Part shown: positions 19,511 to 24,361 of the stretch, one piece after another
Layout: each line of letters starts with the position of its first letter
Position numbering within the stretch: position 1 is the stretch's first letter
Origin: Desulfatitalea alkaliphila
GTDB lineage: Bacteria; Desulfobacterota; Desulfobacteria; Desulfobacterales; Desulfosarcinaceae
Assembly: GCF_022968795.1 (NCBI RefSeq)
Contig: NZ_JALJRB010000015.1
Span: 1-64,000 of the forward strand
DNA length: 64,000 nt
Reading direction: 5' to 3'
Position numbers and translations under genes: made by a program
The notes under the pieces: generated by a model
What the model was told of the DNA's origin: nothing
What the model saw: only the letters and a program-made list of their open reading frames with translations
The model's database searches: none

Positions 19511-20653
19511 ATGCGCATCCAATCCAAGCTGCCCGACGTGGGCACCACCATCTTCACCGTCATGTCTCAACTGGCCGCCGAACACGGGGCCATCAACCTC
19601 TCCCAGGGGTTTCCCGACTTCGACGCCCCGGCGGGCCTCGTCGCGCGGGTCCACCATCACATGAGCCAAGGCATGAACCAGTACGCGCCGATGCAGGGCG
19701 TTCCCCGGTTGCGGGAAAGCATCGCCCGCAAAACGGCCGACCTCTACCAGGCGCGGGTCGATCCGGAAACCGAGATCACCGTCACCGCCGGCGCCACCGA
19801 GGCGCTCTACGCGGCCATCACGGCGGTGGTGCAACCCGGCGACGAGGTGATCGTCCTGGAGCCGGCCTACGACAGCTACGTGCCGGCCATCCAGCTCAGC
19901 GGCGGCGTGCCGCGGTTCGTGCCCCTGACCTTTCCCGACTACCGGGTGGACTGGAACCGGGTGCGCGACACCCTGAACGGCCGCACCCGCATGATCATCC
20001 TCAACTCCCCCCACAACCCCAGCGGCACGGTCCTGGACGAAGCGGACATGGCGGCCCTGACGGCCCTTTGTGCCGACAGCGACCTGCTCATTCTCAGCGA
20101 CGAAGTGTATGAACACATCATCTTCGACGGCCGTCCCCACCAGAGTATGCTGCGCCACCCGGCCCTGGCCGCCCGCAGCTTCGTGGTCAGCTCCTTCGGC
20201 AAGACCTACCACACCACCGGCTGGAAAACCGGCTACTGCATCGCCCCCGCGCCCCTGAGCGCCGAGTTCCGCAAAATCCACCAGTTTCTCACCTTCACCG
20301 CCAACACCCCCGTGCAGTTGGCCTACGCCGACTACATGGAGGACCAGGCGCACTACGCGGCCCTGGCCCGCTTCTACCAAGCCAAGCGGGACCTGTTCCG
20401 CGAGTTGATCGGGCCGTCGCGCTTCAAGCCGCTGCCCTGTGCCGGCACCTATTTCCAGGTGCTGGACTACAGCGCCATCACCGACGCACCGGACACCGCC
20501 TTCGCCCGGCGCCTGACCACCGAAACCGGCGTGGCGGCCATCCCGCCGTCGGTCTTCCACCACGACGGGCAGGACCACAAAGCGCTGCGTTTCTGCTTCG
20601 CCAAACAGGACCAAACCCTGGCCCGGGCCGCGGAAATCCTCTGCCGCTTATGA
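19511..20653 (+). CDS. PLP-dependent aminotransferase, methionine aminotransferase (YbdL) type
   Basis: Class I/II fold-type I aminotransferase, 380 residues. The N-terminus (SKLPDVGTTIFTVMS, INLSQGFPDFDAP) is typical of YbdL/methionine aminotransferases and kynurenine aminotransferase relatives. Cofactor-binding motifs: ILNSPHNPSGTV, LILSDEVYEH, and the Schiff-base Lys in SFGKTYHTTGWKTGY. A probable role is transamination of methionine or aromatic amino acids with a keto acid, for example in the methionine salvage branch. Ribosome binding site GGAG; about 80 bases separate it from the polymerase homologue. Confidence 0.9.
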   Translation: MRIQSKLPDVGTTIFTVMSQLAAEHGAINLSQGFPDFDAPAGLVARVHHHMSQGMNQYAPMQGVPRLRESIARKTADLYQARVDPETEITVTAGATEALYAAITAVVQPGDEVIVLEPAYDSYVPAIQLSGGVPRFVPLTFPDYRVDWNRVRDTLNGRTRMIILNSPHNPSGTVLDEADMAALTALCADSDLLILSDEVYEHIIFDGRPHQSMLRHPALAARSFVVSSFGKTYHTTGWKTGYCIAPAPLSAEFRKIHQFLTFTANTPVQLAYADYMEDQAHYAALARFYQAKRDLFRELIGPSRFKPLPCAGTYFQVLDYSAITDAPDTAFARRLTTETGVAAIPPSVFHHDGQDHKALRFCFAKQDQTLARAAEILCRL

Positions 20654-20833
20654 AATCCCAGCCTTGTGGGAAATAGCCGGATTACGGATCGTCGCCGCGG
20701 CCCTCGTTTTTCGGAACCAAAAGAGGCCGCCGGGCAATAACCCCACAGCCCCATTCACAAAGGATAAACTTTATACGACAGGCTTATCTCCCCACCGCAT
20801 TTTCCAGGCCGGCCTGTTGCCCCCACAACGGGA
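20654..20833. other. Spacer before the inverted-repeat element
   Basis: No gene or clear hairpin. It separates the aminotransferase stop codon from the left arm of the 376-base inverted-repeat element. Confidence 0.35.
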
Positions 20834-21209
20834 GGTGGTGTCGGTCGGGGAGTGGTGGGCTGCAGATTGCGGCACGGGTCCTTGGGCTCGCGCAAAAATA
20901 AATTCGCATTTGAGGCGCTCGGATTTGGGTCGGATTGGTTTGATCAGCGGATTCAAAACCGGAGGCATAGCGAGCTATTCCGAGGATTTTGAATCCGCTG
21001 ATCGGACCAAGACGGCCTGAAGCAGGGATGCATAAAATGGGAATTTCTTTTTGCGCGAGCCCTGAGCGCCGGTTGGGGGCGCACGCAGGGTTGTTCGGCC
21101 CGCACTGTTTGAGCCCCCAGGCGAGTTTGCGGGCCAAACCCGGAGTGCGCCCCCTACCGGCGCTTGGACCCCGCCGCCTGCAGCCCACCACTCCCCGACC
21201 GACACCACC
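20834..21209. repeat. Nested inverted-repeat element closed by a perfect 32-bp inverted repeat
   Basis: A 376-base non-coding unit. Outer arms 20834-20865 and 21178-21209 are perfect 32-base reverse complements. Inside are two independent hairpins. Hairpin A (20884-21062) has distal arms 20884-20908 and 21038-21062 (23 of 25 paired), a perfect 17-base inner pair (20942-20958 with 20987-21003) and an apical ATAGC-GA-GCTAT. Hairpin B (21065-21164) has arms 21065-21084 and 21145-21164 with one mismatch, plus inner GC-rich pairing. The whole would fold as a three-way junction with about 32 bp at the base. No transposase, no ribosome binding site and no sensible frame. It may be a MITE-like element or a structured RNA; its right end is 135 bases from the convergent gene's stop. 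Confidence 0.85.
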
Positions 21210-21344
21210 GGCGTTCAATGCTTTCACACTGAAGCCCTGTAACACCATTGTTCAGGGGTTCTTCCGATCAATATGCCGATTGCCCAATGGCCCGCAATCC
21301 GCACCGCAGAAGGAAAAATCCTGCCATCTGCATTTTTTGCTTAT
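21210..21344. other. Spacer after the inverted-repeat element
   Basis: Non-coding; it links the element to the stop codon of the nicotinate phosphoribosyltransferase gene. Nothing else seen. Confidence 0.35.
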
Positions 21345-22748
21345 TCAGGACTTGTGTTCGGCGATCAAGCGGTCCCGCGCATCCCGCAGACGGGTGCTGA
21401 TGCCCACCTTGTAGATATGGGGATTTTCGAAGCGCTGGTACTCAGCCGGCAGCAGCGCCAGGCGACTGCGGCAAAAGTCGGCGATGGCGGGCAGGTCGGG
21501 CGAATCGGCCACGATCCGTCCCTGCTTCATCACCGGTGTCAGCAGCGGCTCCAAAGGACAATCCGCCAAGGGAAAGGATTTGTGGGGCATGAAGGGATGG
21601 TGCATCATTGTGATCGGCGGTTCTCCCGCGATACCGACGGCATCGGCGCCCAGAAAGCGCCCTTCGCCGTTGAAGGCCCGAAACACCTGCTTGGCATGGG
21701 GCAGGGTGATCTTCTCCACGTTCTCTGAAATTTTGATCAAAGGCTGCCCATCCACGGCGGCCAGCTTGTAAACCCCGTCCAGGGCGGCATCCGGTTGACC
21801 GGTCACCAGGTTGGTGCCCACGCCGAACAGATCGATGGGGGCCTCCTGTTCCAGCAAACTCTTGATCACGTACTCGTCCAATTGATTGGAAGCCGCGATT
21901 TTCACATCGTGCAACCCGGCCGCGTCCAGCATGGCGCGGCTGCGCTGGGCCAGGTAAGCCAGATCGCCGCTGTCCAGACGGATGGCCTTCAATCGGTGGC
22001 CCCGCCGCGCCATCTCCTTGCCCACGGTGATGGCATTGGGGACGCCGCTTTTCAACGTGTCATAGGTATCCACCAACAGGACGCAGTTGTCCGGCCATCC
22101 CTCGGCGAACTGGCGAAAGGCGGTCAATTCGTCGGCGCAGCTTTGGATGAAGGAGTGGGCCATGGTGCCCGAAGGCGCCAGGCCGAAGTCCCGCGCGGCG
22201 CGCACGTTGCTGGTGGCGGCAAAGCCGCCGATCACCGCCGCCCGGCTGGCATGATAGCCGCCCAAGCCCTGGGCCCGGCGCAACCCGAAATCGATCAGGG
22301 TGCGCCCCTGGGCCACCCGTTGCATGCGACTGGCCTTGGTGGCGATCAGGGATTGGAAATTGAGCATGTTGAGCAGCAGGGTTTCGATGAGCTGGGCCTC
22401 GATCAAAGGGGCCTCGACCCGCACCACGGGGCGGGTGGGAAACACAAGGTCCCCTTCGCGGCAAGCGTGGATCGTCCCCTGGAAACGGAAACCCTTCAGA
22501 TACGCCAGAAAATCGGGGTGCATGCCCTGGAACCGCAAAAAAGAGAGGTCCTCGGCATCGAAACGCAGCTTTTCCAAAACCTTCAGCAATTCATGCAGAC
22601 CGGCGAACACCGTGTAGCCCCCCTTGAAGGGGTTCTTGCGAAAGAAATAGTCGAACACCGCCGTCTGGTCTTTTCGCCCGGAAAGAAAGTACACCTGCCC
22701 CATGGCCAACTGATACTGATCGGTGTAGGTGCCGGTGATGTCCATCAT
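21345..22748 (-). CDS. pncB: Nicotinate phosphoribosyltransferase
   Basis: Forms nicotinate mononucleotide from nicotinate and PRPP in NAD salvage. The 467-residue protein shows the family N-terminus [36 protein letters not shown], the [10 protein letters not shown] region containing the active-site His, [13 protein letters not shown], and [11 protein letters not shown]. The start is ATG 22748, which overlaps the stop of prfC as ATGA; GGGAGATCC lies upstream, and longer forms would run deep into prfC. The overlap implies translational coupling. Confidence 0.92.
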
Positions 22749-24361
22749 GATTGGATCTCCCGGGTTTTGAGAAAGATGATCTCCGGCCACTGCTCGCCCA
22801 CGTAGTTGAGCCACCATTCGCTGGCGGCCAGGTAGGCCAGGTTGCCTTCCGCATCCACCGCCAGGTTGGCCTGGTTGGCCTTTTCAAAGGCCGTCAGGCG
22901 CTGCTTGTCGTCGCACTGCACCCAGCGGGCGGTGGCGTAATCCACCGTCTCATAGACCGCCTCCACCCCGTACTCGTCCCGCAGCCGGGCCATGGTCACG
23001 TCGAACTGCAGCACCCCCACCGCCCCCAGGATGAACGCGCTGCCCAGCACCGGCCGGAACAGCTGCACCGCCCCCTCCTCGGCCAACTGGATCAACCCCT
23101 TTTGCAACTGTTTGGCTTTGAGGGGCGACTTGAGCAGCACCCGCCGGAAATAATCCGGGGCGAAATTGGGAATGCCGACGAACTGCAGCGGCTCCTTGTC
23201 CGAAAAGGTGTCGCCGATCTTGATGGTGCCGTGGTTGTGGATCCCCACGATGTCGCCCGGCCATGCCTCGTCCACCAGGGCGCGGTCCTGGGCCATGAAA
23301 ATGATGGGGTTGGCCACCACGATCTCCTTGCCCAGCCGGTGGTGGCGCAAACGCATGCCCCGATAAAACCGCCCCGAGCAAATGCGCATGAAGGCGATAC
23401 GATCGCGATGGGCGGGATCCATATTGGCCTGAATTTTAAACACGAACCCGGAAAAACCCGCCTCTTCGGGCGCCACCATGCGACTGGCGGCCGGGCGCGG
23501 TTGTGGCGCCGGGGCGATCTCCAAGAAGGCTTCCAGCATCTCGCCCACCCCGAAATTGTTCACGGCGCTGCCGAAAAAGACCGGCGTCTGGTTGCCTTTC
23601 AAATAAGATGGCAAATCGAACGGGTTGGCCGCGCCTTCCAGCAGGGCCACATCCTCGCGCAGCTCATCGGCCTGGCTGCCCAGCAGCCGATCGAGACGCG
23701 GGTTGTCCAGATCGTCGAACAACTCACCGTCGTCGCCCAGCCGCTCCTGCCCGGGAGTGAACAATTTCAATGTTTTTCGGTACAGGTTGTAGCTGCCTTT
23801 GAACCGCTTGCCCATGCCGATGGGCCAAGTGAGGGGTGCGCACTCGATCTGCAGGTTCTCCTCGATATCGGCCAGGATATCCAACGGCGCCATGCCCTCC
23901 CGGTCCAGCTTGTTGATGAAGGTGATGATCGGAGTGTTGCGCATCCGGCACACCTCCATCAACTTGCGGGTCTGGGGCTCCACCCCCTTGACGCTGTCGA
24001 TCACCATCACCGCGCTGTCCACGGCGGTCAACACCCGGTAGGTGTCCTCGGAAAAGTCCTGATGGCCGGGAGTGTCCAGCAGATTGATCTCGTAGCCGTT
24101 GTATTCGAACTTCATCACCGAACTGGTCACCGAAATACCCCGGTCGCGCTCAATGGCCATCCAGTCACTGGTGGCGTGGCGACTCGCTTTACGCGCCTTG
24201 ACCGCTCCGGCCATCTGGATGGCGCCGCCGAACAGCAGCAACTTTTCCGTCAAAGTGGTCTTGCCGGCATCCGGATGACTGATGATACCGAAGGTGCGAC
24301 GCCGCTGGATCTCATCCAGCTCCGCGCCATGTGTGGACAATGCATTTGATGTGGCCGTCAT
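22745..24361 (-). CDS. prfC: Peptide chain release factor 3
   Basis: Translational GTPase that recycles RF1/RF2 from the ribosome. The 538-residue protein shows [20 protein letters not shown] (G1), [10 protein letters not shown] (G2), [14 protein letters not shown] (G3) and FINKLDRE (G4), with the RF3-typical insertion FGGAIQMAG, then domains II and III ([10 protein letters not shown]). Start at 24361 follows GGGAAG with seven-base spacing; Met at 24376 lacks a site. A GC-rich hairpin lies directly upstream of the ribosome binding site. First gene of a two-gene operon with the nicotinate phosphoribosyltransferase. Confidence 0.96.

Follow-up and report, generated by a model that had tools for sequence, protein, structure and literature searches.

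A 376-base palindromic feature of Desulfatitalea alkaliphila, probably a nested pair of unrelated mobile elements

The 376-base palindromic feature between positions 20,834 and 21,209 of the window (the whole stretch of Desulfatitalea alkaliphila DNA analysed, 64,000 nucleotides) is very probably a nested pair of unrelated, non-autonomous palindromic mobile elements, in which one, A, has inserted in the left arm of the other, C, and the arms of C have been kept complementary by arm copying. The striking 'three-way junction' thereby resolves into two ordinary events, and behind it stands element C, apparently an undescribed family of palindromic elements whose core recurs across sulfate-reducing bacteria. 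Coordinates of the individual features are collected in Table 1.

Table 1. Features of the nested elements and their surroundings, in window coordinates.
Feature	Position	Strand	Remarks
Element A, complete 179-bp palindromic MITE in C left arm	20884..21062	.	Ends GGGCTCGCGCAAAA / TTTTGCGCGAGCCC
TGA, right TNA target duplication of A; left copy decayed to TT	21063..21065	.	
Element C left arm up to A insertion point; its first 32 nt form the perfect outer arm	20834..20883	+	Aligned with other C copies
Element C beyond A: remaining left arm, core and right arm	21063..21209	+	
Conserved apical hairpin of C, GGCCCGCA-CTGTTTGAGC..GGCGAGTT-TGCGGGCC	21097..21135	+	
Perfect 32-bp right outer arm of C	21178..21209	+	
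GGAGG, left foot of C hairpin	20831..20835	+	Conserved in own-genome and G004 copies, similar in G009, G039 and G002
CCGGC, right foot of C hairpin	21208..21212	+	Conserved likewise among C copies
Possible outer part of C, candidate boundary	20779..20833	+	Leader similar to those of other own-genome copies; CAGG at 20779
Possible outer part of C, candidate boundary	21210..21239	+	GGCGTTCAATGC, similar to GGCGGTCGTTCAACGC in other copies; CCCTG at 21235-21239

An earlier note had described the feature, from its letters, as a nested palindrome closed by perfect arms and lacking coding potential, and this description holds. The two outer arms, at 20834-20865 and 21178-21209, pair without a single mismatch over 32 nt, and the outer inverted repeat reaches 39 nt at 92% when extended past the perfect stretch; the inner inverted repeats are likewise present, at 20928-20971/20974-21017, 20884-20916/21030-21062 and 21065-21092/21137-21164. 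The 376 bases hold no transposase, and the reading frames of 118-154 aa that cross them are mechanical read-through of the palindrome; neither A nor C has coding capacity. Folded as RNA, the segment reaches -282.4 kcal/mol on the + strand (z = -20.4; 0 of 100 shuffles equal it) and -256.2 kcal/mol on the - strand (z = -19.5; no shuffle equals it).

When the 376-bp segment was used as a query against its own genome (G000; 5.07 Mb in 98 contigs), the single full-length match was the query itself, and none was found in the 59 relatives searched. The partial matches in the own genome, from which all copy counts given here derive by similarity searches, form two separate series, one confined to query positions 51-230, mostly at 87-94% identity, and the other to positions 235-328, and this split is repeated in the relatives. 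A query from which A has been removed finds uninterrupted copies of C, chiefly in the relative G004. Each element on its own is one uninterrupted hairpin, of -109.5 kcal/mol over 179 nt for A and -173.1 kcal/mol over 197 nt for C without A. Because A and C recur separately and each is a single hairpin, the three-way junction is the product of the insertion of A in C, and its interpretation as a design gives way to that of an accidental by-product. The proposed MITE-like nature is borne out, but not the single unit, since there are two separate families, one inside the other. The further copies that the earlier note had suggested looking for exist, A and C each being multi-copy in the own genome and in relatives, and its fallback of a single copy with no homologues does not apply.

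The ends of the A family read GGGYTCGCGNAAA. There are twelve full-length copies in the own genome (the window copy and 11 further), with a mean pairwise identity of 0.927, and A recurs alone, without C, at many loci. Its end motif TNAGGGYTCGCGNAAA has 48 sites in the own genome (at most one mismatch) compared with 2 for the reversed control, and 95-126 sites in each of G003, G019 and G048 compared with 0 for the control. The target-site duplications that had been proposed as a check are found as well: 24 copies from the own genome and relatives include 11 flanked by TAA/TAA and six by TTA/TTA, giving 17 exact duplications and indicating that A duplicates a 3-bp TNA target, of which the window copy keeps only the right one. 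In its multiple copies, TIRs, target duplication and lack of a transposase, A behaves as a MITE.

The TNA target, by its length, suggests an IS1031-like (IS5 family) helper. Like the IS5-family (IS1031-like) MITEs, A is short, has TIRs and makes a 3-bp TNA duplication; unlike them, it is without an autonomous partner, and its body is wholly one palindrome. No autonomous partner with the same ends was found among the long TIR pairs of the own genome and G003: the pair at C19 of the own genome was rejected, as it encloses an asnB-like gene (named by reading) and no transposase, and the G003 pairs also carry none. At locus L154 (G000:C89:155694-155724) a 30-bp minimal hairpin, GGGTTCGCGAAAAGAATTTTTCGCGAACCT, consists of only the two ends of A and lies directly after TAA. 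A dispersed AT-rich repeat, roughly ATCGATAGAATTCATTAACTTAAAACTTAAAACTTAACAC, adjoins several A and C copies of the own genome (L128, L129, L130 and L015), and at L130 it stands in place of part of the C right arm.

Element C has about 16 copies in the own genome and dozens in relatives, most of which are draft genomes, many of the G004 copies stopping at contig ends. The copies have a conserved apical core in common; the outer arms vary from copy to copy and are complementary within each. An alignment of 10 own-genome and 8 G004 copies yields a 71-pair hairpin; at 28 of these pairs both sides have changed in a compensatory way, and several of the 28 occur as 3-4 pair types. Across genera, in a core alignment of 46 sequences, the apex keeps CTGTYTGAGC..GCGAGTT and 20 of the 29 core pairs have changed on both sides; alignments fitted for pairing lean towards pairing, and the E-values of the covariance models are rough. 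Matches to the covariance model R1 are strong in the own genome, G009 and G039 and weaker in the rest of the order and phylum, and the weakest of them (~25-45 bits) may be other GC-rich palindromes; the window copy is matched at 21063-21167 with 82 bits. By inspection, further families within the order share this architecture (e.g. L173-L181), as does L299 from the wider phylum. A scan of GTDB contigs for the core pattern matched only Desulfatitalea, Desulfococcus and other deltaproteobacterial or Desulfobacterales MAGs, and the literature searched yielded no description of the core motif, of Desulfobacterales palindromes, of ISAs1 MITEs or of promoter-targeted transposons. One C core, L145 of Desulfatitalea SH-MAG143, has a left half like the G005/BRH_c12 type and a right half of the own-genome type, and is possibly recombinant. 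At L129 and L137 in the own genome the tail motif GGTCGTTCAACGCTC occurs again ~50 nt further 3' of C, as if tail units were duplicable.

The relatives show in what surroundings the core travels. In G039, a single-contig genome, C copies end sharply at TCAACTTTCGACTTTCAT..ATGAAAGTCGAAAGTTGAG, a TIR motif with 259 sites compared with 0 for the control, and 10 of 16 copies (62%) lie between target duplications of 7-8 bp (counted from a score of 6 upwards), compared with 10% in mis-paired flanks. Subfamily I of G009 likewise has 7-8 bp duplications at 4 of 5 copies (80%; 0% when mis-paired), and a second G009 subfamily has yet other ends. The G004 frame is CAGGGYRATYGCATR..CCCTG, with 100 sites compared with one for the control, and the same CAGGG ends bound a 1345-bp element (L266) whose 369-aa protein matches PF13808 and PF01609, the combination of an ISAs1-type DDE transposase. 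A 9-bp duplication, within the 8-10 bp of the ISAs1 family, is clear at L115 in G004 and unclear in the other copies. Core-less frames with the same TIRs occur in both G004 and G039. Since one core stands between different ends in different species, and frames also occur without it, the core is cargo within transposon frames.

C is probably a long-hairpin MITE: a frame with terminal repeats and a conserved hairpin core, lacking a transposase. An insertion sequence resident in the genome presumably moves it in trans, and in G004 this may be the ISAs1-type element with the same ends. Multiple copies with TIRs and without transposase were found in G039 and G004, and target duplications in G039 and G009 subfamily I. 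Among the ~16 own-genome copies no consistent target duplication was found and no TIR could be fixed, and the sole ISAs1-like trace in that genome is a decayed transposase fragment at L275 (G000:C1:296637-296732). Like ISAs1-family insertion sequences and their derived MITEs, the G004 frame has CAGGG ends, no transposase of its own and one clear 9-bp duplication; it differs from them in its long conserved hairpin cargo and in ending 19 bp from -35 boxes, and C departs further from that family in G039 and G009, where the same core lies between other ends.

The position of the G004 frame relative to promoters is unusually regular. The best sigma70 promoter starts 20-22 nt past the CCC of the C 3' end in 17 of 21 G004 copies, and exactly 21 nt past it in 13; these promoters have a mean score of 9.1 compared with 3.8 for shuffles, and -10-like boxes follow ~17 nt on. 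In a second set of G004 ends, fetched by TIR alone, 14 of 26 listed flanks have a best -35 that starts exactly 19 nt past CCCTG; inner or degenerate ends are also in this list. When the 73 ends collected are pooled, with inner and degenerate matches counted in, TTGACA (at most one mismatch) begins at position 19 in 23 and at position 20 in four, and at any other position in no more than two. The only other marked information peak past these ends is at the expected -10, and the 19 nt between are essentially unconserved. Phased loci are L112-L127 and L233-L270 (e.g. L115, L118, L126, L242, L253 and L260). The insertion at G004:C212 faces TTGACG within the reading frame of another transposase, so the -35 sequence itself may be what is recognized. 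No such phasing was seen in the own-genome, G009 and G039 copies, which ties it to the ISAs1-type frame rather than to the hairpin.

We tentatively propose, as a possibility short of an even chance, that the hairpin core is a palindromic cargo captured by and moved between several unrelated frames across Desulfobacterota, and that at least one of these, the ISAs1-type frame of G004, goes in where the complex of RNA polymerase and promoter has its upstream edge, so that the end of the frame lies exactly 19 bp from the -35. If true, this would parallel, in bacteria, the Pol III-guided integration of Ty elements, and many promoters would have the hairpin upstream of them. The literature searched gave no description of promoter phasing at a fixed distance, and if insertion at a fixed distance upstream of sigma70 promoters is confirmed, bacterial DDE transposons would have a new kind of target choice.

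Other dispersed palindromes resemble C in part. REP/REPIN sequences and GTAG- or CGTC-tagged palindromes (PMC3733652), and stem-loop sequence families (PMC2267715, PMC1590033), have been described. Like the REP/REPIN and stem-loop families, C consists of dispersed intergenic stem-loops with a small conserved core and species-specific expansions; however, it is 200-320 bp long with terminal repeats and target duplications, which the 20-40 bp REPs lack, and its core has no constant tag. A REP-type tag at the hairpin foot, GTAG..CTAC, is present in some G004 copies only. ERIC and Correia-type repeats are intergenic imperfect palindromes of 100-200 bp. The elements described here are likewise intergenic palindromes, but appear to differ from these in sequence and host group. 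Integron attC sites, considered because of the right flanks GTTCAAC or GCTTAAC, were rejected: the copies are scattered singly, and no matching left core site was seen.

In a set of 10 own-genome copies of C, identity is 0.951 between cores and 0.826-0.831 between the outer arms of different copies, whereas it reaches 0.947 between the left arm of a copy and the reverse complement of its right arm; none of 5000 permutations that re-paired the arms was as good as the true pairing, and three of the 10 copies have perfect arms. Arms therefore match their own partners better than those of other copies, and perfection is kept or re-created within each copy. Some of the differences are multi-base or length changes mirrored in both arms. 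Compensatory changes, which the earlier note had offered as a check, are indeed abundant in both alignments described above, but the G-U intermediates of RNA selection are not enriched: among strand-neutral pairs, which are those predicted on either strand alike, mismatches of the G-T and the A-C type are about equally rare, at 7 against 4 and 5 against 9. Selection on an RNA fold would normally pass via G-U, and the lack of a G-T excess over A-C fits copying of arm onto arm.

The strongest competing explanation is that C is a functional structured RNA, such as a 5' leader, an sRNA or a guide, with its fold selected and its mobility secondary. The changes on both sides of the core pairs across genera would agree with this, as would the conserved loop and bulge sequences and the greater RNA stability of the + strand, seen in almost every copy. 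Furthermore, the gene 3' of C is co-directional in 40 of 49 copies (p = 9e-6), comprising 17 of 18 in G009, 10 of 11 in the own genome and 13 of 20 in G039, with genes called by a home-made, strand-symmetric codon model; together with the greater stability of the + strand, this makes an RNA or regulatory role possible. However, in addition to the equal rarity of the two mismatch types, the outer arms are unrelated between species, the relatives have TIRs and target duplications, and an Rfam search returned nothing above the gathering score, only sub-threshold matches to miRNA hairpins. The window copy is itself an exception to the co-directional arrangement, lying between convergent genes and broken by A. 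We consider selection for an RNA unlikely as the origin of the family and favour arm-to-arm copying of DNA, in which one arm would serve as the template for the other, through template switching, say, or through repair while the palindrome is extruded as a hairpin. Arms re-perfected copy by copy would constitute a natural record of hairpin-templated DNA repair.

Far less probable is a one-piece mobile or structured element of 376 bp whose three-way junction would be by design; its three stems do exist and are stable, but the lone full-length copy and the recurrence of A and C apart from each other, with different ends, already refute it. Least probable of all is a host terminator, suggested by the site between two convergent genes and by a long hairpin that could stop transcription, since A and C are both multi-copy at unrelated loci and most of the remaining C copies are found upstream of genes; termination is thus refuted as the origin, and is possible as a side effect.

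The perfect outer arms had also been read as a possible sign of recent movement, which the comparison with other copies does not bear out: the window C is ~74-77% identical to other C copies of the own genome and G004, and A has lost its left duplication. The window copy is probably old, and appears now to be inert. Candidate ISAs1-type ends, CAGG and CCCTG, were picked out around it by eye (Table 1), and no duplication was seen there. Its left neighbour is an aminotransferase gene ending at 20653 (+) and its right neighbour a convergent nicotinate phosphoribosyltransferase gene ending at 21345 (-), both named by reading the sequence. No clean empty site was found for this locus, the aminotransferase neighbourhood differing in all relatives with a close orthologue. 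In those relatives the aminotransferase is directly followed by an apparent nitrilase-like hydrolase or, in G004, by a transporter (by reading). The interval 19511-22817 of the window, with the aminotransferase, the nested elements and the convergent nicotinate phosphoribosyltransferase, is a rearrangement breakpoint.
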